Below are positions 15,786-53,177 of a stretch of 54,245 bases of DNA, piece after piece. The first letter of the stretch is position 1; every line of letters begins with the position of its first letter. The translations under genes were made by a program, and so were the position numbers. The notes under the pieces were generated by a model that was not told the origin of the DNA, searched no databases, and saw nothing but the letters and a program-made list of their open reading frames with translations. The DNA is from a virus: positions 1-54,245 of IMG/VR virus record IMGVR_UViG_3300046170_000042, one strand, 5' to 3'.

Positions 15786-16172
15786 ATGTCTGCAAAATCC
15801 GATTATTTGGAATTAAAAGTGTTAGACCATTTCTTAGGAACATCAGCAACATCAGCACCTAGCAACGTATATCTTGCTTTACATACTGCTGACCCTACAG
15901 ACGCAGGTAGTGGAGCAGAAGTATCGGGAAACGGATATGCTAGGCAAGCAATTACATTTGCCGCAGCTTCTGGTGGTTCTGCCGCAAGTAGTTCAGCAGA
16001 AGAATTTACAGCAAGCGGTGGAAATTTTGGAACTATAACACACTTTGGTATATGGGATGCTAGTACTTCAGGCAACTTATTATATCATGGTGCGCTGACA
16101 GCTTCAAAAACAATTGCTGATGGTGATACACTAAGATTTGCATCAGGTAATATAACTATAACAGAGGCATAA
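15786..16172 (+). CDS. Conserved tail/virion protein (128 aa)
   Basis: RBS TAGGAGAAAAG. The order of segments VYLALHTADPTDAGSG, NGYARQAITFAAA, THFGIWDAS, LLYHGAL and DGDTLRFASG matches a widespread phage virion protein family, usually found among tail or fibre genes. The family is small and beta-rich, with no known enzymatic activity. Its place at the head of the fibre block supports a tail role. Confidence 0.75.
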   Translation: MSAKSDYLELKVLDHFLGTSATSAPSNVYLALHTADPTDAGSGAEVSGNGYARQAITFAAASGGSAASSSAEEFTASGGNFGTITHFGIWDASTSGNLLYHGALTASKTIADGDTLRFASGNITITEA

Positions 16173-16176
16173 TACA

Positions 16177-17814
16177 ATGGCTTTGGTAGTCGCTGACAGA
16201 GTAAAAGAAACTACTACTACGACTAGTACAGGTACATACACTCTTGCAGGTGCGGTTACTGGTTTTGAATCTTTTGCATCAATTGGAAATGGAAATACTA
16301 CTTACTACTGTTGTACGGACGGGAGTGATTTTGAGGTAGGTATAGGAACGTATACCTCTTCAGGAACTACTCTTGCCCGTACAACTATTTTGCAGTCCAG
16401 TAATTCGGATAGTGCCGTCAACTGGGGTTCAGGTACACGAGATATATTTGTAACACAACCTGCAGAAAAAGCAGTATACAAAGAAGCAAGTGAATACGTA
16501 GATGCATTTTTGTTGTCTAGCAGTTATGGAAGTTCTTCTAGTCCTATAAATTTTACAGTAACTGTAGCATCTAAAACAGCGGCACACCCATACTACGGAG
16601 ATGGAAGTAGTAGTGCTTACTTTATAAACGGTGTTGAATCACCTGCGTTAACACTATCTGGTGTTGATAACGTAACCGCTAATTCAGAATATTACTATAG
16701 ATTTACTCTTAGCTCAAGTGATATGTCAAGTCATCCGTTTAGGCTTTACTTAGACGCAGATAAAACAACAGCATATACAACAGGTGTCACAACAACAAGC
16801 ACATACTTACAGATAGCAGTAACTGAAGATACTCCAAACATACTATATTATCAATGTTCAAGTCATGCTTACATGGGTAATCATGCGATTGTTCTTGGTT
16901 CTAATAAGATAAATCATTCAGAAGCACTCTTGACATTTCCCACAACTTCTGGTACACTAGTAGGCACAGGAGATACAGGTTCTGTTGCTACAGGTATGAT
17001 AGCAGATGATGCTGTCACAGCCGATAAACTTGCTAACACTTCTGTTAGTGCAGGTAGTTACACTAACACTAGTATCACTGTGGATGCACAAGGAAGACTT
17101 ACTGCCGCAAGCACAGGTTCAGGTGGTGGCGGTATAACTGTTCAAGAAGAAGGTAGCTCACTATCTACTACTGCAACCACATTAAACTTCGTAGGTACTA
17201 ACGTAACAGCATCAGGAACAGGTGCAACTAAAACTATTACAGTTAGCGGTGGTGGTAGTGGAACACCTATTACTATAAATACATATGAATACACAGCTAC
17301 AGCTAATCAAACAACTTTTAGTGGTAGCGATGCTAATTCATCTACACTATCTTATACTGCAGGAAATATATTTGTATATTTAAATGGGGTGTTACTAGTA
17401 GATACAGACGACTATACTGCTACTAACGGCACATCTATAGTTTTACAATCGGGTGTGGCTGTTAATGATAAAGTACAAATTGCTTCATTTTTTGGGAGTA
17501 CTGTTAAAAGTATTAATACACAGACAGGAACAACATATACTCCAGTTTTAACTGATGATGCTAAGTTAATAACTTTAAATAATGGTTCGGCAATTACACT
17601 TACAATACCACCAAATTCTAGTGTAGCTTATCCTATTGGCACACAATTAGAATTTATTCAAATAGGGGCTGGGCAAGTAACAGTAGCAGGTGGTGCTGGT
17701 GTTACGGTTAATTCAACACCAACATTAAAACTTCGTACACAACACAGTCAAGCAAGCTGTATTAAAATTGCATCAGATACGTGGCAGTTATTTGGAGATT
17801 TAGCTGCAAGTTAA
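16177..17814 (+). CDS. Tail fibre-like protein with cupredoxin-like domain (545 aa)
   Basis: The N-terminal 100 residues (RVKETTTTTSTGTYTLAGAV, later FVTQPAEKAVY) are a module common to fibre proteins of marine phages. Residues about 124-240 are a beta domain with H186 (SSHPFRLYL) and YYQCSSHAYMG, giving C227, H230 and M233: the His...Cys-x2-His-x2-Met ligand set of type 1 copper proteins, spaced as in amicyanin. After that come Gly/Thr-rich linkers and a second beta region with the phrase VYLNGVLLVDTDDYT, usual in fibre proteins. Probably a virion fibre or appendage; copper binding is untested. Confidence 0.75.
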   Translation: MALVVADRVKETTTTTSTGTYTLAGAVTGFESFASIGNGNTTYYCCTDGSDFEVGIGTYTSSGTTLARTTILQSSNSDSAVNWGSGTRDIFVTQPAEKAVYKEASEYVDAFLLSSSYGSSSSPINFTVTVASKTAAHPYYGDGSSSAYFINGVESPALTLSGVDNVTANSEYYYRFTLSSSDMSSHPFRLYLDADKTTAYTTGVTTTSTYLQIAVTEDTPNILYYQCSSHAYMGNHAIVLGSNKINHSEALLTFPTTSGTLVGTGDTGSVATGMIADDAVTADKLANTSVSAGSYTNTSITVDAQGRLTAASTGSGGGGITVQEEGSSLSTTATTLNFVGTNVTASGTGATKTITVSGGGSGTPITINTYEYTATANQTTFSGSDANSSTLSYTAGNIFVYLNGVLLVDTDDYTATNGTSIVLQSGVAVNDKVQIASFFGSTVKSINTQTGTTYTPVLTDDAKLITLNNGSAITLTIPPNSSVAYPIGTQLEFIQIGAGQVTVAGGAGVTVNSTPTLKLRTQHSQASCIKIASDTWQLFGDLAAS

Positions 17815-17831
17815 TGAGGATAATTAATTGA

Positions 17832-20800
17832 ATGACAGAATCACGTAATAGAGATTTAGCTACAAGTATAGGTGCGGCAGTTGCGTCTGACAACATTGCA
17901 ACTGACGGTACACTTGCTATCAGTGGTGTTGTTACCTATACTAATCTCTCTGACTTACCAAGTTCAGGTGTTAGTGCAGGTGACTTAGGATTTGTTACAG
18001 CAAACAACGGTTTGTACATTAGGGGTTCATCAGGTTGGTATGTAATAGCACTTATCAATACATCACCTTCATATACTACATCTCCTGACTCATCTTATGA
18101 CTTAGCTACAGATGGTAGCACAACAACTGTAATCACAATAGTTGCTACTGACCCTGAAGGTTTTACTATTACATATAGTGTTACAGCAGATAGTGATTTT
18201 AATGGGCTTGCTACTGTAGCACAAGGTACAGGTAACAATACAAATGTATTTACAGTTACACCTAAAGCAGAGGGTGTTGCTACAACTACAAGTGGTACAT
18301 TAACTTTTAGAGCAACAGATGGCGTAAATAACACAGATGTTGTCTCTACATTTAATTTAACTTTTGGAAGCATTATTATAGGTAATAGACATACTTTAGT
18401 TCTCGCAAAAGCAAGCGGAAATAATGGAAATAACTTAACATTTACAGATGCTTCTTCAAGCTCTCACACAATTACACCAAGTGGAAATGTACAGGGGCAA
18501 ACGTTTTCTCCCTATAGGTCTGGTGGGTATTGCACTAATTTTGATGGTAGTGGCGACCAGATTAGTGTAACTACACCTGATAGCACTTTTAATTTTGGGA
18601 CTGGTGATTTTACTGTAGAAACGTGGTTTTGGATTGATAGTGCTTCTAGTTCTGAACCAACTATGTTTGAGTTAAACACAACTCCTTATAGTGATTCTTT
18701 TATCGTTAACCATCGAGATGGCTATGGAATTGCGGCATATTTAAATAGTAGTAGTATCGGTGGCGCACTACATGGTCACGATGATAATACTATGGGTAGC
18801 GAGGCTTCTGTAGCTAGTACTGACTGGACGCATCTTGCTATCGTAAGAAATGGAAATACTATTACATTATATTTAAATGGTATATCGGTATCTTCAGGTA
18901 GTTACTCTACAGATTTTACAAATCAATCGGAGATAATATTTGGTGGTAGTAACAATGGGAATTTTATTGGAAAATTATTCGATTTAAGAATAGTTAAAGG
19001 AACAGCAGTATACACTGCTAATTTTACACCACCAGCTACATTTTTAGAAAATATTTCTGGAACATCTTTACTTACCTTCCGCACAGCAGTGCCTTATGAC
19101 GAATCAGATAATTCTCATGCTCTTACTTTTGCTGGCAACCCTACAACACTTCCGCAGACTACAATTTATGACTATTTTAATTATTCTACTTCCAACCATT
19201 CTGGTTCAGTATACTTAAATGGTAGTGGCGACTACTTAACTATTCCTTGGAGCAGTGACTTTGAATTTGGTTCTGGGGATTTTACCATTGAAATGTGGTA
19301 TAATTTAAGTGATATAGAAGGACTTATTAGTTGGGGACCAGATGTAAACAATAGATTTGATATAACTGGAACAAGTCAGACAATATTAAGAGTTTTATAT
19401 ACTCATGCTAGTCATACGAATTTTGATAATCGCAATGGTGTTCCAACTGCTAATACTTGGCAACATTTTGCTTGCGCTAGAGAAAATGATAATCTTAGAT
19501 ACTTTATTAATGGAGTTCTTCAAGCGACTGTTGCTATGTCTACTGGGGCAGTTATGCCTAATGATTCTAGTAATGGTATCTCGATAGGTGTGAGAAGGTA
19601 TGGTACTACAAAATCGGATTATTCTGTAGGATACATTTCAAATCTTAGAATATTAAAAGGCACGGCACTATATACAGCTACGTTTACTCCCCCTGCCTCT
19701 TCGCTAGGTGCTATCACAAATACAAAACTTTTAGCATTTCAAGGAAACGGTTTATCTATATTTGACTCTTCTCAGAGTACTCGTTTAATACACGGTACTA
19801 ATATTAAATCATCTACAGCGCAAACAAAAAATGCTTCATCCTCTATAGTTTTTGATGATTCTGGAGATGGTCTGACAGGAGAAATAGAGGCTCTAGGTAC
19901 TGGGTCATTTACTATAGAAGGATGGTTTTATGCAGGAGCGCAAGGAAGTAATAATAGAATTTTTACTACAGGTGGTAATAATCATGCTGGTGGATTTAGT
20001 TTAGTTTTAAGAACTACTGGAAATTTACAATTACAAGGGCCGGGTGGAACATCATTATATCAATCAGGTGCTTATGCTGACAGTGCATGGCATCATTTTG
20101 CACTTGTAAAGATTGATGGTAGTAATACACTTACAGCAAATCAATTTAGATTTTTTATTGATGGAGCATCTGTCTACTCATCAGGAAGTTTTAGCACAAA
20201 CTTGACTGCAACAAATTTATACATTGGTCACTCAAATGGCTCATTTGAATTTGGTGGTTATATAGAAGATTTTAGAATCTCAAAAGGTATAGCAAGATAT
20301 CCTTTTGCTATATTGCCAGCAACATTAACAAGTGACAGCAATACATTTTTACTTGCTTGTCATTCTGATAGTGCTACAACCGCTGTTGGCGATTGGACTG
20401 TAACAACACCCGATTCAAGCGCACCAACAGTAAGTAATTTTGCTCCTTTTGCAGGTGGTAAATCTTTAAGATTTACTTCTAATGATGATATGCTATTATT
20501 TACTCATACAGGAAGTTCATCGGATTATCGAATAGGAGATAGAAACGATAATGCCGCAGGTAATTTTTCTATAGAATTTTGGGCATATTATGATGCTGCT
20601 TCTATAGGAGGTACTACTTATATGTTTTCTAATTATGGTGGTGGGGCTGGTGCGGCTAATAATCAAACTATAATGCTTGGTTATAGGACAACAGGAACTA
20701 ATTTACTACAATATAGAGTGAATAGTGCTAGTGGTTCTAATGGTAGTAATGCTACACAAATTACGAATGGAGCAACTTTCCAAACATGGACGCATCATTA

Positions 20801-21068
20801 TATAGTGCAAGAATACGATAGTAGTAATTCAAATACCTATGTTGCATATTATATAGATGGTGTTCGTGTACACAACTATACTAAAACTTCAAATGAACCA
20901 CTAGACATGCAACGTTTTGTAATAGGGAGTGGCACAGGCAGTGGGTCTAGCGGTGGCAATTATTGGAATGGGTATATATCTAATTTTAGAATACAGACAG
21001 GAACAGTAGCATTTCCTAATACTGCTCAACTTAAATACACATTACCCACTGCAGAACTAGAGGGTTAA
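17832..21068 (+). CDS. Tail fibre with four LamG-like domains (1078 aa)
   Basis: Residues 1-72 are a short N-terminal module copied in the next gene. Residues 78-180 look like an Ig/cadherin-type domain (ATDPEGFTITYSV). Four concanavalin/LamG-like repeats follow at about 235-405, 457-625, 670-832 and 875-1062. Each has a GDFT-[V/I]-E-W strand, a W-[T/Q/H]-H-[L/F]-A strand, an [L/I]-NG turn, and an end like LRI-KGTA-Y-FTPP. LamG folds bind carbohydrates, so this is a good candidate for the main host-recognition fibre. There is no catalytic signature. Confidence 0.85.
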   Translation: MTESRNRDLATSIGAAVASDNIATDGTLAISGVVTYTNLSDLPSSGVSAGDLGFVTANNGLYIRGSSGWYVIALINTSPSYTTSPDSSYDLATDGSTTTVITIVATDPEGFTITYSVTADSDFNGLATVAQGTGNNTNVFTVTPKAEGVATTTSGTLTFRATDGVNNTDVVSTFNLTFGSIIIGNRHTLVLAKASGNNGNNLTFTDASSSSHTITPSGNVQGQTFSPYRSGGYCTNFDGSGDQISVTTPDSTFNFGTGDFTVETWFWIDSASSSEPTMFELNTTPYSDSFIVNHRDGYGIAAYLNSSSIGGALHGHDDNTMGSEASVASTDWTHLAIVRNGNTITLYLNGISVSSGSYSTDFTNQSEIIFGGSNNGNFIGKLFDLRIVKGTAVYTANFTPPATFLENISGTSLLTFRTAVPYDESDNSHALTFAGNPTTLPQTTIYDYFNYSTSNHSGSVYLNGSGDYLTIPWSSDFEFGSGDFTIEMWYNLSDIEGLISWGPDVNNRFDITGTSQTILRVLYTHASHTNFDNRNGVPTANTWQHFACARENDNLRYFINGVLQATVAMSTGAVMPNDSSNGISIGVRRYGTTKSDYSVGYISNLRILKGTALYTATFTPPASSLGAITNTKLLAFQGNGLSIFDSSQSTRLIHGTNIKSSTAQTKNASSSIVFDDSGDGLTGEIEALGTGSFTIEGWFYAGAQGSNNRIFTTGGNNHAGGFSLVLRTTGNLQLQGPGGTSLYQSGAYADSAWHHFALVKIDGSNTLTANQFRFFIDGASVYSSGSFSTNLTATNLYIGHSNGSFEFGGYIEDFRISKGIARYPFAILPATLTSDSNTFLLACHSDSATTAVGDWTVTTPDSSAPTVSNFAPFAGGKSLRFTSNDDMLLFTHTGSSSDYRIGDRNDNAAGNFSIEFWAYYDAASIGGTTYMFSNYGGGAGAANNQTIMLGYRTTGTNLLQYRVNSASGSNGSNATQITNGATFQTWTHHYIVQEYDSSNSNTYVAYYIDGVRVHNYTKTSNEPLDMQRFVIGSGTGSGSSGGNYWNGYISNFRIQTGTVAFPNTAQLKYTLPTAELEG

Positions 21069-21072
21069 TATA

Positions 21073-21303
21073 ATGCCAGAAAGTAGAAACAGAGACATAG
21101 CAACAAGTGCTGGTCAAGCTGTTGCTAATGATATTATAGCAACTGATGGTTCGCTAACAGGCAATGTAGTAACTGCTTATACCAATGCTTCAGACATACC
21201 AGCATCAGCGAGTGTAGGTGACATGGCTTACGTAACTAGCACAAACAAACTATTCTTTTGGCGAGGTGCATGGTACGGTATTACTATAGGTGACGCAGTA
21301 TGA
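21073..21303 (+). CDS. Stand-alone copy of the fibre N-terminal module (76 aa)
   Basis: The sequence aligns with the first 72 residues of the preceding 1078-residue fibre: ESRNRD(L/I)ATS, AVA-D-IATDG, a Tyr-Thr-Asn segment, then GD and a W-Y strand near the end. It has its own ATG and ends overlapping the next gene by 4 nt. It may be a separate adaptor or the remnant of a duplicated fibre attachment domain. Confidence 0.75.
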   Translation: MPESRNRDIATSAGQAVANDIIATDGSLTGNVVTAYTNASDIPASASVGDMAYVTSTNKLFFWRGAWYGITIGDAV

Positions 21304-22904
21304 CGTTCTCTATTGCTCCTTTTTCCTCTGCTCCGTTTTCTGCTGAAGCAGGTAGAATATTAACAGCGGATGCATCCGTATCGGGTTCAGCATCTGTTAG
21401 TGTCGTAGGAGTAAGAGTACAACCTGCAGGTGCTAGTGTATCAGGCGCAGGTACAGTATCAGAAAGTTCCGTAAGAATACATAATTCTTCTGCATCAGTT
21501 TCGGGTGCAGGTACACAGTCTAACACTGCCGTTGCAATACTAGTTGTCGGTGCTTCAATATCTGCAAATGGCACATCAACTTCTATAGGCACAGGTCTAA
21601 GACCGGGTGAATCGCAGATATCTGGTGTAGGTACAGTATCTGCAGTAGCTACTTTAAAAGCAGTAGTTGATGCATCTGCATCAGGTGCAGGTACAGTTTC
21701 AGCAACAGAGGCTGAAATATCAAAAGGTGAAGCATCAGTATCTGGTGCAGGTAGTGTAAGTTCTACTGCCGTAAGAGTACAATCTGCTGTATCAAGTATT
21801 TCAGGTGCAGGTACAGTATCAAGTACTGCAACATTATTAGGTGTAGTAAGTTCATCTGTATCAGGTGCAGGTACAACATCAAGTACTGCTACACAAAGAT
21901 TTGTAGGTGAAGCATCTGTATCGGGTAGCGCAAGTGCTACAGCTATTCCAGCACAAGAAGCAGAAGCTAGTGTATCAGGTTCAGCAAGTGTATCTAGCGT
22001 TGGTACATTACGCACTTTAGGTACAGGAAGTGTTTCAGGTGCAGGTACTACAAACACAGCAGACGTAACAGTTAGACAAGTTGCTTTCGCTAGTGTGTCG
22101 GGTTCAGCATCTGTTAGTGCTGATACTACATCAACTGCTAGTGCATCTATATCAGGTTCAGCAACTGTAAGCACTACAGGAACATTACTTGCAAATGTAC
22201 AATCAAGTGTTAGTGGTGCAGGTACACAATCTAATACGGCTGTTGGAGTATTTGTAGCAAATGTAAGTGTATCTGCATCTGGTACATCTAGTTCAAATGG
22301 TACAGGTTTACTAGATGGTGACACAGCTATCAATGGTGTTGCTACAGTTTCGAGTGAAGCTACATTAAAAGCTAAAGGTATTACATCTGTAAGTGGTGCA
22401 ACAACTGTATCAGCAATTGCAGATAGGTTAAAAGATGTAGACAGTTCAGTATCAGGCGCAGGTACAACATCTAGTTCTGCAGATAGAGTTGCTAATGCTG
22501 ACAGTTCTGTATTCGGTGCAGGTACAACAGCTATTACACCAAACCATATACAACCTGTTGATAGCAGTGTAGATGGTTCAGCTACAGTTATATCACTAGC
22601 TACTAGAAGATTATTAGACAGTAGTTCAGTATCAGGCACGGGTACTACAAGCGGTGATGCTATTGTTGTTAAACTTGTTAGTGCGACAATTACAGGAATT
22701 GGTTCTACTGCTGGTGACAGCATAAAAATAACTTATGAAGCAATAAGAGATTTTTACACCAGAGAAAGAACTGTGTTTGTAGAATCAAGAAGCGATGATA
22801 CACCAATAGATAGAAGAGTATTTGTATTAGGGCAAAATAGAAAAGTTATTGTACCGTCACGGGTAGACCGTACTAGTTCATCCAGACGTGTGAGTGTAAG
22901 ATAA
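21300..22904 (+). CDS. SGAG-repeat fibre protein (534 aa)
   Basis: After about 20 N-terminal residues the protein contains about 23 tandem units of some 19-22 residues, each starting with a pattern such as ASVSGAGTVS. The unit composition (Ser, Gly, Ala, Thr, Val) suits a repetitive beta fibre. The last 65 residues leave the repeat and carry charged strands (RERTVFVESRSDD, then RKVIVPSRVDRTSSSRRVSV). Probably a long fibre or shaft on the virion. The reverse strand lacks stops here because of the repeat codons, giving a false antisense ORF. Confidence 0.75.
   Translation: MTFSIAPFSSAPFSAEAGRILTADASVSGSASVSVVGVRVQPAGASVSGAGTVSESSVRIHNSSASVSGAGTQSNTAVAILVVGASISANGTSTSIGTGLRPGESQISGVGTVSAVATLKAVVDASASGAGTVSATEAEISKGEASVSGAGSVSSTAVRVQSAVSSISGAGTVSSTATLLGVVSSSVSGAGTTSSTATQRFVGEASVSGSASATAIPAQEAEASVSGSASVSSVGTLRTLGTGSVSGAGTTNTADVTVRQVAFASVSGSASVSADTTSTASASISGSATVSTTGTLLANVQSSVSGAGTQSNTAVGVFVANVSVSASGTSSSNGTGLLDGDTAINGVATVSSEATLKAKGITSVSGATTVSAIADRLKDVDSSVSGAGTTSSSADRVANADSSVFGAGTTAITPNHIQPVDSSVDGSATVISLATRRLLDSSSVSGTGTTSGDAIVVKLVSATITGIGSTAGDSIKITYEAIRDFYTRERTVFVESRSDDTPIDRRVFVLGQNRKVIVPSRVDRTSSSRRVSVR
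21372..22733 (+). repeat. Degenerate tandem repeat, about 23 units of 57-66 bp
   Basis: Units begin with codons for (A/S)S-(V/I)-SG-(A/S)-(G/A)-(T/S). A higher-order pattern exists: a three-unit block starting near 21490 (GAGTQSNTAV..., ANGTSTSIGTGL..., GVGTVS...ATLKA) recurs about 710 bp later near 22203 (GAGTQSNTAV..., ASGTSSSNGTGL..., GVATVS...ATLKA). This suggests the array grew by duplicating a block of about twelve units. Confidence 0.75.
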
Positions 22905-22919
22905 ATAAGGAGATAAATA

Positions 22920-23243
22920 ATGGCTTTAAGATGGCCTAATAAAGACCCCGATGAAACACTAGACTATAGTATAGATTGGAGTAGGTTTTTAAGAACAGGT
23001 ACAACTATATCTCAAGTTATTTGGTTTGTAAAAAATGAAAATGACGTTAAAACACGCTTTGACGCAGGAACAACTGTTAACGGTTTAACAAGCACAGCAC
23101 AAACTATATCTACAAATGGTACAGTAGCATCTATATTTTTATCTGGGGGAACTACTTCTAAGTATACTCTATTTTGTAATATGACGGATAACAGAGGTGT
23201 TACAGCAGAACGTAGCGTAACGATTTTTATAAGAGAGCAATAA
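22920..23243 (+). CDS. Ig-like virion protein (107 aa)
   Basis: RBS AAGGAGATAA. The start RWPNKDPDETLDYSIDWS is a recurring motif of a small structural protein in T7-like and marine podoviruses. The rest is a single beta sandwich-like domain ending in RGVTAERSVTIFIREQ, a typical Ig-like final strand. It sits between the repeat fibre and the tail-tube genes. Likely a connector or fibre-associated component. Confidence 0.7.
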   Translation: MALRWPNKDPDETLDYSIDWSRFLRTGTTISQVIWFVKNENDVKTRFDAGTTVNGLTSTAQTISTNGTVASIFLSGGTTSKYTLFCNMTDNRGVTAERSVTIFIREQ

Positions 23244-43505: not shown

Positions 43506-45548
43506 TCACGCTACGTCTTTAGTGTCAAGCCAATTTGATCCTATTTTTGACTCAAGTAAGAGAGGAACATTGAAGTCAATGCCCCATCTCAATGTAATCA
43601 AATTAGGCAGTTCTTTGTTAGTCAAGTCAATTATATCTAGCACCTTCCTTTCTTCATCTGGGTGTACATCTATGACAATAGAATCATGTACTGTGTTTAC
43701 TACACACGACTGCATGTTGTCAAGCAGGTTATCAATATGTAATAGGGCAATTGGTACAATATCAGCCGTAGCAAAAGACTGTACCGGGTAGTTTTTTATC
43801 TGTGTAAAGTATGAAACACGGCCATTTGCTTTACGTACAACATCGGGGAATGAAAACTCACGTCCAGATGGGGTTACTATTTTCTGTGTTGTGATAGCTT
43901 CCGTAGCCAACTTGGAATGCCAAGTGGCAACCCCCGTGTACTTGTCGTTGAAGTGTTCGTAGTAGGCTGCTTCTGCTGCCGTCCTTCCGAACCCAGTGGC
44001 CCCGTAGAGTGGCGCAAATGTATGCGCTTTTGCATCCTGTCTACTCGTAGGCTGACCAGCATTGGTAATAACTTCAGCGGTGTATGCATGTACATCAAAT
44101 CCAGTAGAAACTTCTTCAATTGCAACTCCATCCTGTGATAAGTATGCGGCAGCACGAAACTCTAGCTGTGCAAAGTCAGCCTCAAGTATCTTACCACCAT
44201 CCCATCGTGACACAAATACCTTCTTTACAGGAAACGTGCCGCCACGTGGCATGTTCTGCATATTTGGATTAGCACCAGACAGACGACCTGTCGCAGTGCG
44301 ATGTTGTAGTAGGCTGACATGCAGCATACCATCTTGCTTGGTGTAGTTCTTGATGCCATCAACAAACGATGACAGGTAAGTGTCAACAGCACTAAGCCGC
44401 TTAACCTTTGCCAAGAACTCAACTGCATCTTCCATACCTTTTGACTTAGCACCTGCCTCAAGCAATTGCAAGTTGTTCTTGCTGGTTGAGAAGCCATTAG
44501 CACTTGCCCACTTTGGTGTAGGTGGTTTGAATTTAAGTCCTGCTCTTTCACTTGTGTTCTTGAATAAGAACCCTTTGGTGTCACAGATTTGACATTTGTT
44601 TTTTCGTGCGTAGGGTTTACCATCTTTCTTAAACTTTTGAACATATCCTTCTCCTCTGCATTCATCACATTGTTCTGCTTTTGTTTTATACAAAACAGAA
44701 GTGTGGCTCTGTACTAAATTTCGGAATAAACTTTGCTCCATGTAATTGTCAATACAATTAGCCCACTCTGTTTTATCAATAACTTTCCTACCATATATAA
44801 CCCAAGACAACTGCTCTGGACTATTGAGATTGATAGGAGTGTCACCCATTAATTTATTTACATGTATACTTAGTTTTGATTCTAGTTCTAATTTCTCCTT
44901 TTCAAATTCTTTCTTAACTTCATCTAACTTGTATAGGTCTACCTTGAATCCTCTATGATATATCTTAGCTAATGACACTGCTACTTTATTAGTAAGAATA
45001 GCAGTAGACATTAGACTAGCATCTTTATGTGTATTCAATCTAGTGTATAGCCTATCTGATAATTGTTGAGTGGCATGTAAGTCTGACGACAGATACATAG
45101 ACAATTCAACTAATGGTATATCACGAGTAGTGTAACCTTTAGCAAAGTATTGTTTCAATGTATCTTGTTTCTTAGTATCTAATTCATACCTATTTGCACA
45201 AGCCTCTAGTGATAGAGGTTCTTTTATTCCTCTCTGTAAGACGTACTCAACAAGCATTGTATCAAACACTGCACCGTCATACTTGAAGCCCGACTCCCAC
45301 AACCAAACTAAATCATAGGCAATGTTATGTCCTATTAATATAGTAGCTTTGTCTAACCATTCTTGCACTTGCTCATGCCCATTAGGTGTTGGCATAACCT
45401 CACTGTGGTCAAATGTAATGCGTCTTTCTAAACCTGTATCTGTTAACATACCAACCATAGTTAAAGAATTAGTAGGCTCAAATGGGTCAAGATGTAACTT
45501 ACCATTTCTTTTTGTTGTTGTGTTCTCTACGTCTAGTGTTAGTTTCAT
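43506..45548 (-). CDS. polA: DNA polymerase, family A, with DnaJ-type zinc finger (680 aa)
   Basis: Phage replicative polymerase. ATG 45548 has GAGG 8 nt upstream, and overlaps the helicase stop (ATGA). The 3'-5' exonuclease has LDVE (D6/E8), IGHNIAYDL and YLSSDL. Residues about 290-326 hold CDECRGEG (C294, C297) and CQICDTKG (C319, C322), a DnaJ-type zinc finger. The polymerase domain has motif A EADFAQLEFR (D458), motif B RQDAKAHTFAPLYGATG and motif C NTVHDSI (D622). The residue four after the motif B Lys is Phe (E. coli position 762). This architecture marks HMO-2011-type phages. The frame is intact over 2 kb. Confidence 0.94.
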   Translation of the reverse strand: MKLTLDVENTTTKRNGKLHLDPFEPTNSLTMVGMLTDTGLERRITFDHSEVMPTPNGHEQVQEWLDKATILIGHNIAYDLVWLWESGFKYDGAVFDTMLVEYVLQRGIKEPLSLEACANRYELDTKKQDTLKQYFAKGYTTRDIPLVELSMYLSSDLHATQQLSDRLYTRLNTHKDASLMSTAILTNKVAVSLAKIYHRGFKVDLYKLDEVKKEFEKEKLELESKLSIHVNKLMGDTPINLNSPEQLSWVIYGRKVIDKTEWANCIDNYMEQSLFRNLVQSHTSVLYKTKAEQCDECRGEGYVQKFKKDGKPYARKNKCQICDTKGFLFKNTSERAGLKFKPPTPKWASANGFSTSKNNLQLLEAGAKSKGMEDAVEFLAKVKRLSAVDTYLSSFVDGIKNYTKQDGMLHVSLLQHRTATGRLSGANPNMQNMPRGGTFPVKKVFVSRWDGGKILEADFAQLEFRAAAYLSQDGVAIEEVSTGFDVHAYTAEVITNAGQPTSRQDAKAHTFAPLYGATGFGRTAAEAAYYEHFNDKYTGVATWHSKLATEAITTQKIVTPSGREFSFPDVVRKANGRVSYFTQIKNYPVQSFATADIVPIALLHIDNLLDNMQSCVVNTVHDSIVIDVHPDEERKVLDIIDLTNKELPNLITLRWGIDFNVPLLLESKIGSNWLDTKDVA

Positions 45549-46771
45549 GCTGTATACCTCGCTGTCTGATATTCTAGCTGACATGTTACATCACCATGCC
45601 ATCCTGTCAACTTATTTTTTACCACGTTCAGATGGCGTTCAATATCCTCTTCTTCCTGACCCTGCAGAGGTGGGTTCTTGGCGATCAGTATCATTAGGTC
45701 AGCCTCTGCTGCCTTTACCTGTCCTACTACCTTCCATCATGCTCTGATTCAGTATGACCTTACCTTCTGCCTCTGCAGATAGCTGAGACATGTAAAATAC
45801 AGCGCAGCTCATGCTGCTTGGCAATCATACGTGCAGTGTACTGCATTAGCCTTCAAAGCCTCGTCAGGTCTTGCAAAGCCACCTGTCTTGGCAAACTTGT
45901 CACCCATGTCCAGAAGCACCAGATCAGGCTTGTACGCCTTACATATAGACTCCACCCACGCCATGTCACGACCTGTAGCATCCTTGATCTTGATACGTTC
46001 TTTGACAGGTGCATACAAGTCACGTGCCTTGCTTGGGTTCTTCTTGATTTCCTGCATAGTCATACCAGTAGCGGCAGTCAGGTATCTAGCACCGACACGG
46101 TGATAGCCTTCCTCGTTACACAAGATAATGCAGTTAGCACCCTGATGTGCAAAGCCGCCGGGCGATGCAATCAGTGAGGCATGAAATGATGTCTTACCTG
46201 TGTTGGGTCTAGCACCCACCTCAATCAAGTGACCAGCGTTCACACCTTCCACCTTACGTGTCAGGCTGGGGATATTGAATGTCCATCGTGCCTCAAGGTC
46301 ATTACGTGCAAGCAATGTCTCAAGTTCGATGTCATCCCACTCAACCTTGGCACTAGGTGTAAAGTCATCACCATACTGCTCAAGTATCTGACGCAGTGGG
46401 TCAAGGCTAGTCTGCATACCATCCACGTAGTCACATCCTAGTGTGGCAATCTCTTCGCCAATGACCTTCTGGAACAGCTTGGATAGCACCTCTTGTGCTA
46501 CGTCACTGCCCATCGGCTGTTCACGTTTGATGTTGTTGAACAGGGATGAATAGGCTTGCTTCTGTGCAGTAGTCAGCGTTGGATTGTTTGCCATGAACAA
46601 CGCCTCAATTTCATCGGGTGTCACAGTACGTTCATATCGTTCCATAGCACTGTCGATAGACTGCTTTATTTTACGTACATCTTTACTGAACAAGCGGTCA
46701 GGACAACGTGCGCCACGATGCTCCTCGTAAAACTCCCTGTTCATTAGGCTTCTGATTAGTGATAATTCCAT
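45545..46771 (-). pseudogene. Replicative DnaB-like helicase, frame-broken in the 3' third (407 aa restored)
   Basis: Walker A is GARPNTGKT (186-194), a glutamate follows in LCNEEGYHR, Walker B ends PDLVLLDMGD (D288). After residue about 305 the frame breaks. Removing three extra bases (near 45845, 45795 and 45715) restores IYMSQLSAEAEGKV, MMEGSRTGKAAEADLMIL, NVVKNKLTG and RYTA, then a stop overlapping the polymerase ATG. The result is 1224 nt, a whole number of codons. Helicase and primase are separate here, unlike T7 gp4. It unwinds DNA at the fork. Confidence 0.85.
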
Positions 46772-46775
46772 GTGG

Positions 46776-47543
46776 TTATTCTCCTATCTGTTTGTGGATA
46801 GCATCTAGCTTATCCATGTCTGTCGGGTTTCTGTATTTTATATCATCTTGCAACTTTAGCAACCGTACATTTTCTACGTAGCCTCTCAGTTCTTTTACCA
46901 TCTGTATTGATTTTACTAGCGCATCGGGGTCTAGTGCAATCACTGCCGTTGAGAACTGTGCAAGATACCTTTTATGCGAATCTTGGAGAGATGTACCAAG
47001 AAGCGCAACCCCGACAAAGGAACCATAACCAACAATGGCCGCACTCACACAGTCCTCAACAACTACGGCGACTTTACCACAACCTGACGTGTATGGCAAG
47101 CCACTTTTTCCATATCTTTTCCATTTAGGAATACGTTTACTCAATGTCCTGCCTGTTGCATCAACTAACTTGCCATCATGTACGACAGGGAATACCACGC
47201 GGTCTTCCTTTACATCATACATCAGGGCATGTTCATCCTCATTGATACCCCACTCAGCGCACCACTTAACAACGGCACGTTTATTACGATGTGGGACTAC
47301 GTATGCAGGTAACTCAAATGTATCCTCTGTTGTATCAGTAACAGGGTTAAGGCGTTTCTGTACGTCACTGATAGACAATGGCACACGAGTACCACCACTG
47401 ACAGTACAACTCACCTTGTAGCAGTTCCATACAAGATTACCCATATCATTAGTGATACTAAATGTTCTGTCACCCTTACAGACAGGACAGTTCATGCGTT
47501 TAGTCTCGCCATTGGCAACATCATAGTCACTTGGATTAATCAT
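46776..47543 (-). CDS. DNA primase, zinc-finger and TOPRIM (255 aa)
   Basis: RBS AGAAAGGACA. The N-terminal zinc ribbon has C19, C22, C41 and C46 (MNCPVCKGD...WNCYKVSC). The TOPRIM core follows with AVVVEDCVSA (E163) and VIALDPDAL (D205, D207). The C-terminus is short. This is a primase equal to the front half of T7 gp4, with the helicase in the next gene, four bases away. First gene of the leftward replication operon. Confidence 0.9.
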   Translation of the reverse strand: MINPSDYDVANGETKRMNCPVCKGDRTFSITNDMGNLVWNCYKVSCTVSGGTRVPLSISDVQKRLNPVTDTTEDTFELPAYVVPHRNKRAVVKWCAEWGINEDEHALMYDVKEDRVVFPVVHDGKLVDATGRTLSKRIPKWKRYGKSGLPYTSGCGKVAVVVEDCVSAAIVGYGSFVGVALLGTSLQDSHKRYLAQFSTAVIALDPDALVKSIQMVKELRGYVENVRLLKLQDDIKYRNPTDMDKLDAIHKQIGE

Positions 47544-47618
47544 ATACGTGTCCTTTCTATATACAGTTATATATTATTATAGTTATATAATATATTAGTT
47601 CCCTGCGGCAGTTTAGTG

Positions 47619-47648
47619 CTTATATCATGTATTCTTACGTGCTGTCAA
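47619..47648 (-). promoter_or_regulatory. Sigma70-type promoter of the leftward replication operon
   Basis: On the minus strand TTGACA (47648-47643) and TATAAG (47624-47619) are separated by 18 nt. The start would be near 47612, giving a 69-nt AT-rich leader before the primase ATG. The promoter lies across the end of the integrase gene, so replication genes can be transcribed independently of it. Confidence 0.65.
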
Positions 47649-48722
47649 GGCATTATTTGCACTGACATATGTATTTTTTAGGTACGGCTTTACTGATTGT
47701 GGGTCAGCATGTCCTGTAACCGACATGATTTGTCCTATACCTACCTCTGCATCAACCATTTCAGTCACACCTGTACGCCTTAGATCAGATAAGCGTAGTT
47801 CCTTAGATAATCCAGCGTCATCCATCAGCTTACGTGCATGTAATGGTAATTTATACATCGTGTATGGTTCATACACACCCCTGTATGCTGTAGGTCTAGG
47901 TGCAACGTAAGGTTGAAAGCCAAAGTCTTGCTCCTGTTGTACTAACATATCATACAGGTCATCATCAATGGGTAGTTCTACCTGTGCATCACGCTTAGAT
48001 TGTAAAATAATTACACGCTTCTTCTCAAAGTCAATAGCATCCCAAGTTAATACACGCATATCACCTACACGCTGACACCATTCGTATGTCATTTGAAATA
48101 TCAATCCCACATTTCTGTACTCAAAATCTGAGTATGCAATGTCAAGAAACTTAGTTATATTTTCTTTTGTCCAAACAATTTTTCTCTGTTGTGGTGTCTC
48201 CTTCTTAATGCGTGAGAAGGGATTCACCTCACAATACCCTGTATTTATTGCATAATTATACACCATACTCATAGCACTACATATATGGTTAGCCATGTGT
48301 ACACCTCGCGTTAACCACTCTTGGTATGCACGATTAGCAGTTACAGCAGAGATATCTTTTACATCTATCTTCGACAACTGACGATTGTTTATACAAGTAG
48401 ATAAAGCTGTATCAATAAATTGCTTGTACTGTAACTGCGTTTTAGGTTTCAACTTAATGAAGTAATAAGATTGATAGTACACCGCTACTACTTGACGCAT
48501 AGTTCTTGGTACATTTTGTTTTGCTTGTCTCTCCATTTCTTGATGTTCAGATATAATATTGTTTAGTTCTTTGGCACGAGCAAAGGCAGGTTTGCCCATG
48601 CTACCTAAACTCTCACGCTCCACTAAACCTAACTCAATATATTTTTGAGGTGGGTTAAAGCGATAGAACCTAGTGCCATCAGCATATTTCTGTGCTTGTG
48701 TATATCTAGGTAAGTTTGTCAT
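47625..48722 (-). CDS. Tyrosine recombinase/integrase (365 aa)
   Basis: N-terminal SAM-like/arm-binding regions are followed by a catalytic domain with EWCQRVGDM (R218), QSKRD (K243), LSDLRRTG (R315), SVTGHADP (H338) and KPYLKNTY (Y347 is a likely nucleophile). The first His of the usual HxxR motif is Ser312. It resembles integrases of alphaproteobacterial phages. It would integrate the genome at a host att site, but no attP core or repressor was identified. The end overlaps the downstream promoter. Confidence 0.87.
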   Translation of the reverse strand: MTNLPRYTQAQKYADGTRFYRFNPPQKYIELGLVERESLGSMGKPAFARAKELNNIISEHQEMERQAKQNVPRTMRQVVAVYYQSYYFIKLKPKTQLQYKQFIDTALSTCINNRQLSKIDVKDISAVTANRAYQEWLTRGVHMANHICSAMSMVYNYAINTGYCEVNPFSRIKKETPQQRKIVWTKENITKFLDIAYSDFEYRNVGLIFQMTYEWCQRVGDMRVLTWDAIDFEKKRVIILQSKRDAQVELPIDDDLYDMLVQQEQDFGFQPYVAPRPTAYRGVYEPYTMYKLPLHARKLMDDAGLSKELRLSDLRRTGVTEMVDAEVGIGQIMSVTGHADPQSVKPYLKNTYVSANNALTARKNT

Positions 48723-49581
48723 GCTTTCCTCTCAATTCGTATAGTTGTATTGCTGTTTTAAATATCTCATCATACCATTGTAGATTATCTCTAAAATGTT
48801 TTGGTATATTTTCGATACCGTACCAAGCACCTGCAATCATACCTGCAACAGCACCTGTTGTATCAGTATCGTGACCTAGATTAACTGCTTCTATAACACA
48901 GTCCTCAAATGTTTTGGTATTTAGAAAGCACCACCATGCAGCTTGGAAGGTTTCTTTTACGTATCCACCAGACATAACGTCTTCTCGTGGTGTATTCTTA
49001 GGTAATCGATACTTATCATTAGCTCTTCTATGAAAGCCAAACCATATTTCTTCTGCTAATAATCTAGCATACCTGATACATTCAGGTGAAGCATGGGTAA
49101 GCATGGTAGAACACACTGCATACTCAACAGCCTGACATAAACTATCTGCCACAATTATAGCAGGTGCTAGACGCATGATGCCACCATTGCCAGATGAATC
49201 AGAACTATTTAAACCTACGTAAGGGTTGTCTTTTTTACCTAGTGCTTCGTAGTGACGCAACGCTTTTACTGTAGTCATTCCAATATCAAAGCACACTCCT
49301 CTTGGTATATATTCTCCTTCGTTTTTCCAAGCAACAAAGTTGTCCATAATATCTGATGCATTGAATGCACCCTTATTTTTTATAAGGGCATCTGCCATTG
49401 CCATTGCCATAGCTGTGTCATCTGTCCACTCTCCTATGGTGACACCATGAGTGCCACCAGTTGTATATTCTCTTACGTAGTTATCCTCATCCCTTCTGGG
49501 TCTGAACTCAAGGGGTGCGCCTAAAGCGTCACCCACTGCAAGTCCTACAAGCATACCTACTGATTTGCTTCTATCTAACAT
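48706..49581 (-). CDS. ADP-ribosylglycohydrolase (291 aa)
   Basis: DraG/ARH-family enzyme that removes ADP-ribose from modified side chains. Metal-binding motifs are visible: GEWTDDTAMA (T53, D54, D55) and GHDTDTTGAVAG (D238, D240); GNGGIMRLAP (131-140) is the family substrate loop. Full length, with no frame breaks. It overlaps the integrase by 17 nt and shares one base with the DUF932 gene. It could undo host or phage ADP-ribosylation. Confidence 0.9.
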   Translation of the reverse strand: MLDRSKSVGMLVGLAVGDALGAPLEFRPRRDEDNYVREYTTGGTHGVTIGEWTDDTAMAMAMADALIKNKGAFNASDIMDNFVAWKNEGEYIPRGVCFDIGMTTVKALRHYEALGKKDNPYVGLNSSDSSGNGGIMRLAPAIIVADSLCQAVEYAVCSTMLTHASPECIRYARLLAEEIWFGFHRRANDKYRLPKNTPREDVMSGGYVKETFQAAWWCFLNTKTFEDCVIEAVNLGHDTDTTGAVAGMIAGAWYGIENIPKHFRDNLQWYDEIFKTAIQLYELRGKHDKLT

Positions 49582-50429
49582 TAAGCTACTAACTCCTTAA
49601 AATATTTGCTTTCTGTCCATTGTAGAACCTCATGCTCTCGCTTGAACATAGACTCTGATGCTGTATCGTTGCCTGTGTTACGTAACTTGAAACCATTGCG
49701 CTCATCTGCATAGGTTGCATAGTTTGTAAAGGCTGAGTACAATGCCCAACCATTGTGTCCACGTATGGATGTTTCTTGGAAGTACAACTGCATCATCTTC
49801 TCTACTCTTTTATCTGACTTGAATAGCTTTTCAAGCATAGCTTTCACATCACCAGACCATAACGCTTTATTGGCTAGTGTCTGTAGTCTATGCGAATAGT
49901 TATGAAAGGAATGTTCTGAGTTTCTCAAGTCCTGTATGAACCTATCCATGCTAAAGTTAGATGTGTTCTTACGTCTAACCTTGTCATGCTCACCTCGTAT
50001 CTGTCCATTTGTACAGAAGAAATCTATCGCACCAAAGTATGCTTGGTTGGAACAGCTACCATCTATACCACGTAATGCTATGATACGCTGTGCTATAGTA
50101 GTAGAATGTTTTTCTGTTGTGATGTTTGTCTTCACATTTGGTAATGTAATGTCCATCAAAGCCCAAGCATTATTGTGAGAATCTTTCCATGCAATCTCTG
50201 CATCAGCAGTTTGATGAGGTTGAAGTGTATTAACTATCTCCTCTTGCACCTGCGTAAAGAACTTTGCATGTCCTATTGCAGGGAAGTTATCCCCTACTAT
50301 GCCGATGTACTCTCCTGTATTTTTATTGATGACATACTTCTTGCCCTTAAACTTGGTAGGCTCATGCTCTACCTCAAAGTCTAGGTGTTCTGGTATTGGG
50401 TCTAGTGTGTTTGTAAAATCAAGTGGCAT
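49581..50429 (-). CDS. DUF932 protein (282 aa)
   Basis: ATG 50429 follows AAAGGAGAATAAAT, a strong RBS, and is preferred to a start 21 nt earlier. The pattern KYVINKNTGEYIGIVGDNF, EKHSTTIAQRIIALRGIDGS and NGQIRGEHDKVRRKNT fits DUF932 (phage/plasmid-like protein). Function unknown. Complete and intact. Confidence 0.82.
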   Translation of the reverse strand: MPLDFTNTLDPIPEHLDFEVEHEPTKFKGKKYVINKNTGEYIGIVGDNFPAIGHAKFFTQVQEEIVNTLQPHQTADAEIAWKDSHNNAWALMDITLPNVKTNITTEKHSTTIAQRIIALRGIDGSCSNQAYFGAIDFFCTNGQIRGEHDKVRRKNTSNFSMDRFIQDLRNSEHSFHNYSHRLQTLANKALWSGDVKAMLEKLFKSDKRVEKMMQLYFQETSIRGHNGWALYSAFTNYATYADERNGFKLRNTGNDTASESMFKREHEVLQWTESKYFKELVA

Positions 50430-50952
50430 ATTTATTCTCCTTTTCTGCAACTGATATTGTTTTATATAACCATTGTGGCATGTTACGTCCTCTATTGTAT
50501 CGTGCGAATCTTAACTTGTCAACCCTATAAAAGGCACGATATGCTTGTATAGGATAATCTTCTTCTGTCTTTAGTTCATCGTGTCCACTGAAACACTGTG
50601 GGTGTGCTGTCACGTCACCATCTGGTAACAGATGCCGTCCTCTGTACAAAGCGATGCTATGCTTACCTGCACCATGCCACTTGCCATACCTGTGGTGATA
50701 CTCACCTAGCATGGCTGTGTATAGACTGTAAGCCCATCTGTAATTGGCACGATTCTCCATTGCCCACAGGGTGCATGGATGCTTCTGATGTACAGGCTTG
50801 TACAAATCACAGGCTTCTGCATACTCTGGTGCATGATGCCATAGGCTAGTGCATAGCATCTGCGCTTCTTCCAATGGCATCTTGACAACGTGTTGGTCAC
50901 ATAGTGACTTAGCTATATCGTTGACATCTTCTTCTATAATAAATCTATTCAT
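50419..50952 (-). CDS. Conserved phage protein with DQHVVKMPLEEAQML motif (177 aa)
   Basis: ATG 50952 has AGGAG 7 nt upstream; earlier in-frame ATGs lie in the neighbour. Motifs in order: SLCDQHVVKMPLEEAQML, HPCTLWAMENRANYRWAYSL, EYHHRYGKWH, then DYPIQAYRAFYRVDK. This order is common to a phage family of unknown function; some entries are annotated as glycosylase-like, which I cannot confirm. Confidence 0.75.
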   Translation of the reverse strand: MNRFIIEEDVNDIAKSLCDQHVVKMPLEEAQMLCTSLWHHAPEYAEACDLYKPVHQKHPCTLWAMENRANYRWAYSLYTAMLGEYHHRYGKWHGAGKHSIALYRGRHLLPDGDVTAHPQCFSGHDELKTEEDYPIQAYRAFYRVDKLRFARYNRGRNMPQWLYKTISVAEKENKYAT

Positions 50953-51115
50953 GCTCATTCTCCTGCATAAACTCATTAAGCGTATCTTCATCCGCATCTT
51001 GTGTGTAGAATTTATACATCTCATCATATGCAAAACGCAATAGTGTTTTCATATCCCAATCATCCACATATTTCATGCAAGCATTGGCTATCTGGTCATC
51101 TGTATATCTATTCAT
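50945..51115 (-). CDS. Small acidic protein (56 aa)
   Basis: ATG 51115 follows GGAGGTGAGC. The 56-residue product starts MNRYTDDQIANACMKYVDDWDM and has a long acidic helical end. Its start region copies that of the next gene (AGGAG, TGAGC, ATGAATAGA). Not a recognised family. Confidence 0.65.
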   Translation of the reverse strand: MNRYTDDQIANACMKYVDDWDMKTLLRFAYDEMYKFYTQDADEDTLNEFMQENEHE

Positions 51116-51389
51116 GCTCACCTCCTGCACCTCTGCCAAGTCCACCAAAATACTGTGGCTTACGCTTGGCTGTTTGAAACACACCGACAGTAATAAACAC
51201 TCCTGCCAGTAATAGTGTATGTGCTATGGCACTGATGCCAAATGCTACGATAGAGCCTAATGACATACTGAATATGATACACCACATCCACGCTAATACC
51301 TGCATTATCATATGCCTTGTGTTGATATCAGGTATGTTAGACAATGGATTCTTTGCATCATCCATAATCATATTATATAACTTTAGCAT
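51108..51389 (-). CDS. Small membrane protein (93 aa)
   Basis: Two transmembrane helices (about residues 29-52 and 54-72) between a charged N-terminus and a Gly-rich end GGLGRGAGGEHE. AAAGGAATATGTGA precedes the ATG. Overlaps the next gene by 8 nt. Function unknown; an inner-membrane protein from the early region. Confidence 0.62.
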   Translation of the reverse strand: MLKLYNMIMDDAKNPLSNIPDINTRHMIMQVLAWMWCIIFSMSLGSIVAFGISAIAHTLLLAGVFITVGVFQTAKRKPQYFGGLGRGAGGEHE

Positions 51390-51538
51390 TCACATATTCC
51401 TTTCTTTAATAACTCTATCACAACTATGTATGCACCACAAGCAAACACAAACATTATAGCAAAGCGTAACACATTATCCATGCTTGGGTCTTGCATCTCA
51501 TCCTTGTTCATCCAGAATGTAAGTATCTTTTTAATCAT
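51383..51538 (-). CDS. Small membrane protein (51 aa)
   Basis: A charged N-terminal segment and one transmembrane helix (residues 26-43, FAIMFVFACGAYIVVIEL). Starts inside the preceding stop region and ends within the next start, with four- to seven-base overlaps. No family recognised. Confidence 0.6.
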   Translation of the reverse strand: MIKKILTFWMNKDEMQDPSMDNVLRFAIMFVFACGAYIVVIELLKKGICEC

Positions 51539-51668
51539 TAGGTTTCTCCATCAATACTGCATGGCTACCATGATGTGCGTGTAGCTGTTGTATAACTACC
51601 CACCCCATAAGTTTGTATGCTTCTATGTCGTAGTGTGATACGTATCTATACACTCTCATCTTCATCAT
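51531..51668 (-). CDS. Small hypothetical protein (45 aa)
   Basis: RBS AAAGGAATCAA before ATG 51668. A compact 45-residue sequence with several His residues (LHAHHGSHAV) and a strand-helix-strand pattern. Overlaps the methyltransferase stop by 4 nt. Not recognised. Confidence 0.58.
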   Translation of the reverse strand: MMKMRVYRYVSHYDIEAYKLMGWVVIQQLHAHHGSHAVLMEKPND

Positions 51669-52750
51669 TTGATTCCTTTCAATATGTGTGCTATCACGTC
51701 AACTGTAAAGCCATTGCCTAACATCTTGTATCGTTGCGTGTTGGACACATGATTGGTGTAGTTGTCGGGTAATGTCTGCAATCTCTCGCACTCAAGTGGT
51801 GTTAGCTTACGCCATTGTAACTCTGATATATCTACTGCCACGTTATCTTTCTGTACTGTGGTCAAGCTATTGGTCTTGCCATCCATGCGTACTTCCAGAC
51901 GTTGCTCTGTCATACCTGCCACCTTGTGCTTGTGGTCTTGTCTGATACCATCGACTGTGTACCTGCCTCGCCATGCACCACACAATATCTTGGGTTCATG
52001 GTTGCCCCCTGTACCTGTCGTTAGCGTAGGTGCTTTACCTAGTGGGTGATAAACACGCTTGATGCTATCGTTACCATTGAGGTCAGCGTCTGCAACATGA
52101 CATAAGCCATCACTACTAAACACTAACTGTCTGCGGTGCTTGGTAAAGTATGTCTTGAGATTGCCACCCTTGAAGTAGTTGGCATCAAGGCAATGTGACT
52201 TCTCTCTATCAGCAAAGCCATACTCAAGTATATCCTGTAGCACAAGCCCTTTGTCATCTGGCTGTGTGACATTGGGTATGTTTGTCCAATACAAACGCTG
52301 TCGGTTCTGTGCAGACATAAGCCTACTGTTGATAGCGATAGGCTTGACACCTAGTGCATCAGATATCACGTCCTGATACTCCTGTTTCATACGTACATTC
52401 TCAAGCAAGAAATACTTAGGCTTGAGTTTGCGTAACACTCTGACATACTCCCAGAATAATTTACTACGTGGGTCATCAAAGTTTAACTGCTTACCTGCAA
52501 AGCTAAACCCCTGACATGGTGAGCCACCTACAAGCAGGTCAATCTTACCTTGTGGTGCGACTGCATTTAGCCAGTTGGCAAAAGCCCTACTTGTAATGTC
52601 ACCCATCTGTACAATGTCAGGATAGTTTGCCATTGCTACCTTGATAGCATACTTATCTATCTCTGACGCATAATACTTAGTAACGGGTATGCCTAGTCTG
52701 TCTAAGGCAACACGAGTACAAGCACTCCCATCAAATAAACTTAGTACATT
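51665..52750 (-). CDS. DNA cytosine-C5 methyltransferase (361 aa)
   Basis: ATG 52750 has GGGAG upstream. Motif I is LSLFDGSACTRVAL; motif IV is GGSPCQGFSF (catalytic C80); motif VI is FLLENV; motif VIII QNRQRLYW; the C-terminus has LTPLECERLQTLPDNYT and MLGNGFTVDV. The target-recognition region lies between residues about 180 and 315. It transfers a methyl group to C5 of cytosine, likely protecting phage DNA from host restriction. No cognate endonuclease is present, so it is a solitary enzyme. Confidence 0.92.
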   Translation of the reverse strand, partial: NVLSLFDGSACTRVALDRLGIPVTKYYASEIDKYAIKVAMANYPDIVQMGDITSRAFANWLNAVAPQGKIDLLVGGSPCQGFSFAGKQLNFDDPRSKLFWEYVRVLRKLKPKYFLLENVRMKQEYQDVISDALGVKPIAINSRLMSAQNRQRLYWTNIPNVTQPDDKGLVLQDILEYGFADREKSHCLDANYFKGGNLKTYFTKHRRQLVFSSDGLCHVADADLNGNDSIKRVYHPLGKAPTLTTGTGGNHEPKILCGAWRGRYTVDGIRQDHKHKVAGMTEQRLEVRMDGKTNSLTTVQKDNVAVDISELQWRKLTPLECERLQTLPDNYTNHVSNTQRYKMLGNGFTVDVIAHILKGIK

Positions 52751-52754
52751 CATA

Positions 52755-53177
52755 TCAATACTCCCATCTGTAGAAAACGTGGTCATCTATTCGTACCACA
52801 TACTGTTTTGATTCTGCCCATTCTGGCATGACATATGTAGCATGGTAGTGTGTTGCACCCTCAACAAAGTCATCTAGGTGTCCAAGCAACACACCCCCTG
52901 CCACTAGCTTAGACATCTCCCATGCCTCTGCATCACGTGGCTTGTCACTCTTGCCGTCACAGTACCATGAGAAGTGACACCTATTCCTTATAGGTACATC
53001 AGGCTTCCATGAGTACGTCTGTCCTTGTGTAACTACCTCACACACATCATTAGGAAAGCGGTTATCCTTTACACGATTCATCACAACTTGTGCCACTGCC
53101 ACTTGCCCAATAAAAGATTGGTTACGTGCTTCATGGTACACATTCATAGCAAGGCATAGAAAAACAGTTTCTAACAT
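52755..53177 (-). CDS. SleB/CwlJ-type cell wall hydrolase (140 aa)
   Basis: Hydrolase_2 family: AMNVYHEARNQSFIGQVAVAQVVMNRV (E16 catalytic), the PNDVCEVVTQG loop, FSWYCDGK and THYHATYVMPEW. The family cuts peptidoglycan as a lytic transglycosylase-like enzyme. This is a second wall-degrading enzyme beside the GH24 endolysin. It lies in the early minus-strand operon, so its time of expression is probably different. Mature-size domain, no signal peptide. Confidence 0.88.
   Translation of the reverse strand: MLETVFLCLAMNVYHEARNQSFIGQVAVAQVVMNRVKDNRFPNDVCEVVTQGQTYSWKPDVPIRNRCHFSWYCDGKSDKPRDAEAWEMSKLVAGGVLLGHLDDFVEGATHYHATYVMPEWAESKQYVVRIDDHVFYRWEY

Follow-up and report, generated by a model that had tools for sequence, protein, structure and literature searches.

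The 54,245-bp virus record IMGVR_UViG_3300046170_000042, analyzed at its full length (the window), codes for a 545-residue tail fibre protein in which residues ~117–241 probably make up a genuine cupredoxin-fold domain, its type 1 ligand set intact; this mobile module of marine virions would act as a metal-pinned bead. Copper binding by the module is most likely, with the fold predicted and the ligand set aligned on known type 1 sites. The fold is known and its context is new; a literature search identified no paper that describes a phage fibre with a cupredoxin domain—most subscription papers lay outside its coverage, and its outcome does not prove novelty—and as far as that search shows, use of the fold as a widespread marine virion module is apparently undescribed. 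The viral nirK gene (PMC8115048) codes for an enzyme and is unrelated to the fibre module.

The fibre gene and its candidate copper ligands

The fibre gene (positions 16177–17814, plus strand) is a single open frame. Its product matches PHROG 30742, 'tail fiber protein' (6e-32, residues 120–314), and PHROG 677, 'baseplate wedge tail fiber protein connector' (residues 172–240), and because of these matches to tail fibre families we judge the label 'tail fibre' to be sound on sequence grounds; the gene has both the family similarity of a phage tail fibre and a location in the tail gene cluster. Residues 1–105 (16177–16491, plus strand) form a conserved N-terminal segment, 80–86% identical in many viral contigs, which is probably the fibre anchor. 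The cupredoxin-fold module (16525–16899, plus strand) is recognized in an AlphaFold2 model, in structural matches, and in a profile search of its own genome (16525–16896, E 9.5e-50). Residues 263–545 (16963–17811, plus strand) make up the C-terminal shaft and tip region and match the C-terminal parts of phage tail and virion families (PHROGs 8780, 21510, 21978, and 18179).

The window has a podophage-type structural cluster, including genes for a portal, a major capsid protein, fibres, and adaptors. Directly upstream of the fibre gene is a gene for a Gp80-like fibre I protein of GP4-type podophages (15786–16172, plus strand; Pfam PF23140, 2.1e-46), and on its 3′ side lies a Laminin-G fibre-like gene (17832–21068, plus strand), directly downstream and coding for a 1,078-residue protein with four Laminin-G/ConA-like lectin domains. 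Further downstream are a Gp77-like fibre-tail adaptor gene (22920–23243, plus strand; PF23148, 4.8e-15) and an SU10-like adaptor gene. At 21284–22904, a 534-residue open reading frame is built of repeated SVSGAGT-like units; the 479-residue mirror frame on the opposite strand is probably an artefact of the repeats. The minus-strand segment at 43506–52786 codes for a family A DNA polymerase, a DnaB-like helicase match, a tyrosine integrase (47625–48722, minus strand), and a C5 cytosine methylase (51665–52786, minus strand), and the phage may be temperate.

A preliminary description of this DNA had placed a cupredoxin-like domain in the fibre at 16546–16896, with His, Cys, His, and Met at residues 186, 227, 230, and 233 as ligands. 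Translation of 16177–17814 confirmed the four residues, and the proposed span (residues 124–240) fits a conserved block (residues ~117–256) of related contigs. His186 (16732–16734), in an H-P-F motif just before a strand, is the predicted copper ligand 1; Cys227 (16855–16857), the sole Cys of the module, is the predicted thiolate ligand; His230 (16864–16866) is a further predicted copper ligand, and Met233 (16873–16875) the predicted axial ligand, all on the plus strand. The C-x2-H-x2-M pattern occurs once in the 545-residue protein, and the remaining six-frame matches in the window have nearby stop codons or fall in frames that make unconvincing genes.

Predicted fold and relationship to blue copper proteins

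An AlphaFold2 model of the module, built with 65 homologues, is a beta-sandwich (mean pLDDT 89.5, pTM 0.84) with strands at 16–24, 38–42, 50–53, 64–69, 80–83, 96–98, 102–107, 114–119, and 127–132 (model numbering). The first His lies two residues ahead of strand 80–83, the Cys ends strand 114–119, and the second His and the Met are in the next loop, with the Met just before strand 127–132. As predicted, this arrangement of strands and ligands is the cupredoxin order, and the ligands follow the type 1 succession, in which a His by the beginning of a middle strand precedes a Cys that closes the penultimate strand, with a second His and the axial Met ahead of the last strand. The preliminary description had proposed a strand-rich domain of cupredoxin fold and suggested structure prediction and structural searches; the model and its cupredoxin matches support that proposal, the prediction being in agreement with the Greek-key beta-sandwich of ~100–150 residues that characterizes the cupredoxin superfamily, although the Foldseek E value is only 4e-3.

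That value belongs to rusticyanins, which head the Foldseek matches of the window domain in PDB (probability up to 0.97) and are followed mainly by multicopper oxidases and nitrite reductases; no PDB match reached E 0.001 or better. In VIA-align the best match (Z 8.2, 3.1 Å over 95 residues) is the N-terminal domain of the three-domain nitrite reductase of H. denitrificans, and the best 50 chains listed are all made of cupredoxin-type domains, nearly all of them copper cupredoxins: nitrite reductases, laccases and other multicopper oxidases, rusticyanins, and one coagulation factor VIII. A Z near 8 is middling on VIA-align's own scale, and we therefore also modeled a cellular relative, a 154-residue Marinifilum lipoprotein. 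This model (pLDDT 94.3) matches rusticyanin with a Foldseek probability of 1.00 and reaches Z 9.2 in VIA-align, where 119 chains have a Z of at least 8 and are again cupredoxins. The folds nearest to the fibre module are the nitrite reductase N-terminal domain, rusticyanin, and laccase domains. The first two, although the best fold matches, share 11–18% identity with the module and are redox proteins of respiratory chains, and the Cys-His-Met loop is longer in rusticyanin than in the fibre. Among viral structure models (BFVD), the fold of the module is matched with E values of 1e-7 to 1e-8 by A0A481Z6J5, A0A481Z7Q7, and A0A481YWX9, short proteins from Pithovirus and Marseillevirus assemblies that bear the name 'beta-sandwich protein'.

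Searched as a single sequence against PDB and Pfam, the window domain returned nothing meaningful and no amicyanin match, and it stays below the cut-offs of both PF00127 (Copper-bind) and PF13473 (Cupredoxin_1). Homologues were therefore collected before blue copper proteins were compared by profile. When a broad profile (A4) of 14 phage and cellular domains was searched against PDB, the first six matches were all blue copper proteins, led by nitrite reductases (E 0.001, 0.0012, and 0.002) and followed by plastocyanin (0.0043), pseudoazurin (0.013), and rusticyanin (0.029); amicyanin, at E 0.37, is not significant. The alignments to nitrite reductase 2vmj and plastocyanin 1kdi set His, Cys, His, and Met on the known ligands, with His186 on the type 1 copper His of each, and the loop of 2vmj, the top match, reads C-T-P-H-P-F-M with the same spacing as in the fibre module.

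A related domain in the tail spike of phage P-SSM2 comes closer to Pfam, with E values of 3e-4 for Cupredoxin_1 and 6e-4 for Copper-bind, both just below the cut-offs (21.1 of 27 bits for PF13473 and 20.7 of 21.2 bits for PF00127), and it matches cupredoxin, auracyanin, rusticyanin, and amicyanin entries in PDB. Four blue copper sequences, whose own profile has rusticyanin, plastocyanin, amicyanin, and pseudoazurin as its top PDB matches, were used for a profile–profile comparison; this gave a probability of 85 over the Cys-His-Met loop only and a long, weak alignment at 36, and it does not count among the main evidence. The case rests on the agreement of fold, sequence, and ligands. By sequence the closest Pfam family is PF25489 (At5g54830-like), which is matched by 26 of the 65 module family members and whose name indicates no copper function; its 27-bit cut-off is passed by two cellular domains, L188 (31.8 bits) and L225 (37.5 bits), and the window domain fails it at 16 bits.

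The ligand pattern had been described as amicyanin-type, and this stands for the spacing of C227, H230, and M233 (x2, x2) but not for the surroundings of the first His, which is followed by Pro. Asn follows the first ligand His in amicyanin, plastocyanin, and pseudoazurin, whereas 96% of the module homologues have Pro at that place. The module and amicyanin (PF00127) have in common a His...Cys-x2-His-x2-Met pattern, a beta-sandwich, and a similar Y-x-C-x-x-H run, and the distance from the first His to the Cys is 41 positions in the fibre and 39 in amicyanin; the two differ in H-P for H-N and in context, the one being part of a phage fibre and the other a periplasmic electron carrier.

Conservation and loss of the ligand set

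H186, Y225, C227, H230, M233, and G234 are invariant in a 65-row alignment reaching down to 27% identity, and the four ligands are invariant also in the 14-domain alignment behind profile A4. The fibre is rich in Ser, Thr, and Gly, and single motifs of this kind do arise in six-frame translation, as a chance origin of the ligand pattern in a low-complexity Ser/Thr-rich protein would have it; however, the pattern is conserved down to that identity across phages, bacteria, and archaea, the AlphaFold2 and VIA-align results are independent evidence of the fold, and we reject chance as having next to no probability. Our early conservation counts were biased in that some of the search patterns contained C-x2-H or H-P, and we therefore repeated the search with the N-terminal 96 residues of the domain, all of which precede Cys227. 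All 55 complete distinct domains found in this way have H-C-H-M, and in a larger homologue set the ligands are kept in 182 of 183. Among 237 distinct DNA sequences both synonymous codons are in use for His and for Cys, although the motif was required in these, so that only codon variation is shown. Exactly one Cys is present in 179 of 187 distinct homologous domains, which rules out an internal disulfide in most of them.

In divergent homologues the His and Met are separated by two, three, or four residues, a variation (x2/x3/x4) that parallels amicyanin and plastocyanin type sites. This bears on the alternative of a site that only stabilizes the fibre and holds zinc or some other metal in place of copper, or else Cu(I) lacking blue-copper character. 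A Cys/His/His/Met site can take Zn or Cu(I), and recombinant azurin takes up Zn; against this, zinc sites rarely use Met, and both the ligand set and the variants of its spacing are those of type 1 copper sites. Metals other than copper do occur on tail proteins, as with the iron and calcium in the spike of phage P2 (cited in PMC5797145). Overall, we consider occupancy of this other kind quite unlikely.

Searching annotated phages by tblastn, for which no motif was needed, yielded 20 copies with complete ligand sets and eight without the Cys, His, and Met. The domain signature persists in these eight, three of which retain the first His, and the usual L-Y-Y-Y-C run reads, for example, L-Y-Y-Y-N or L-Y-Y-Y-S. 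All eight are within giant cyanophage baseplate or virion proteins, at residues 658–820 of L237, 854–925 of L238 (phage S-H9-2), and 1550–1638 of L086, and in L241 (two copies), L236, L243, and L244. In one natural fibre domain (L036/L039) the Cys is replaced by Ser with the His and Met retained. The four ligand residues are, judging from these comparisons, under selection, and the signature of the domain persists where the site is gone, the site itself being retained or lost as one unit. This is what a functional metal site predicts, as relics or packing residues would decay singly.

These patterns are pertinent to the idea that the cupredoxin fold serves as a stable beta-sandwich spacer, metal-free in the virion, with the four residues as relics or packing. 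Inert beta-sandwich domains are freely reused in phage structural proteins, a Cys-to-Ser variant is present in fibres, and the giant baseplate copies keep the signature without Cys, His, and Met, from which it follows that metal is probably not needed for the fold. However, Cys-His-Met is either complete or absent in the 28 copies found without a motif, and none of the 55 fibre-type relatives retrieved without C, H, or M in the search patterns lacks any part of it; moreover, packing would hardly favour a single Cys in a protein of the virion surface. We therefore regard a metal-free spacer as unlikely. The paralogues that keep the domain signature without the ligand residues also weaken the notion that these residues are needed purely for fold stability, and the natural ligand-less baseplate copies are ready-made controls.

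Distribution of the module and its possible roles

In related viral contigs, residues ~117–286 or a shorter part of them reappear as one unit within proteins that otherwise differ, and residues 1–105 recur independently of the module. Of 79 open reading frames that match the N-terminal segment, 36 also bear the module, many of the others being truncated contigs or weak matches, so that the counts do not give a frequency; several long frames (e.g., in L048, L056, L067, and L069) continue from the N-terminal segment into other sequence with no module. A consensus query of 50,697 phage records identified 105 that carry it, and all are Synechococcus or Prochlorococcus phages and other cyanophages, Pelagibacter and Methylophilales phages, or marine single-cell viruses, which bears out the earlier expectation of relatives in marine phage fibres. 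The phage proteins concerned are tail fibres, gp9-like proteins, gp7-type baseplate proteins, connectors, and other virion proteins. T4-like cyanophages (P-SSM2, P-TIM68, Bellamy, S-RIM2, and P-HM1) and Pelagibacter and Methylophilales phages have the same module with the same ligands, although their module proteins are often much larger than the fibre and some contain ligand-less paralogous copies. In the gp9-like protein of S-RIM2 (L244, 14300–15535), the C-terminal ~95 residues are a module with all four ligands. The records examined annotate these proteins only as tail fibre, baseplate, virion structural, or hypothetical proteins, and the present assignment would give the domain a name.

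Within the fibre shaft the module most likely serves as a modular unit of decoration or adhesion, by analogy with Ig-like domains such as T4 Hoc, which are optional, mobile beta-sandwich beads thought to attach weakly to cells (PMC10385173). It shares their optional-bead habit, but the fold differs and Hoc-type domains are without a metal site. Electron transfer is unlikely as a main role because there is no known redox partner and the module is found in many unrelated virion proteins. The cytoplasm in which virions assemble contains almost no free copper, and copper loading would therefore have to occur outside the cell. We suggest that the domain folds as an apo-protein inside the infected cell and would take up one copper ion once the virion reaches sea water; it would then form a metal-pinned bead of the shaft, flanked by the N-terminal segment and the C-terminal region, and may either offer a surface that attaches weakly to cells or space the receptor-binding tip.

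A more active part for the copper center can be envisaged, in which it works in adsorption by docking on host copper-uptake or redox proteins, or by sensing copper or redox state, as the preliminary description had proposed. The fibre that holds the site belongs to a marine phage and faces the host, and inspection of the sequence around a cellular homologue (L225) shows genes with c-type haem motifs. Such a role would transfer to copper the Ferrojan horse idea (cited in PMC5797145), in which metal-bearing phages exploit host metal receptors. The iron-loaded P2 tail spike cited there is likewise a metal on a phage tail protein, but the metal is iron rather than copper and the protein is unrelated. 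However, the module is one optional shaft segment and is present in baseplate and connector proteins too, not in host-binding fibres alone, and we find a role in adsorption very unlikely. It is similarly very doubtful that marine phages as a group have functional virion copper centers, with the copper state of the fibre acting in adsorption or switching the fibre.

If the metal-pinned bead does bind copper, abundant marine phage particles may be carriers of protein-bound copper on their outside, and metalloprotein biochemistry would gain a place in phage adsorption. The presence of trace metals on marine phage fibres, so far argued mainly for iron, becomes a testable question.

Beyond phages, the module is found in small predicted lipoproteins of Marinifilum, SAR86, and a marine Euryarchaeote, and in very large predicted surface proteins (adhesins) of marine Flavobacteria; some of the module-bearing contigs among cellular genomes are likely phage-derived. 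The L225 gene (4716–6194) codes for a gammaproteobacterial lipoprotein with the module (PF25489, 2.6e-9), and by inspection its flanks hold genes with C-x-x-C-H haem motifs and one for an outer-membrane-like protein, a setting that might be one of extracellular electron transfer. Contigs L203, L205, L183, L212, L209, L219, and L204, which are attributed to marine bacteria or to a single archaeal-type bin, code for short proteins that have a zinc-ribbon-like or related start (e.g., CDRCGF...EWNG) and end in one or two modules; these short zinc-ribbon/cupredoxin proteins look like phage structural proteins.
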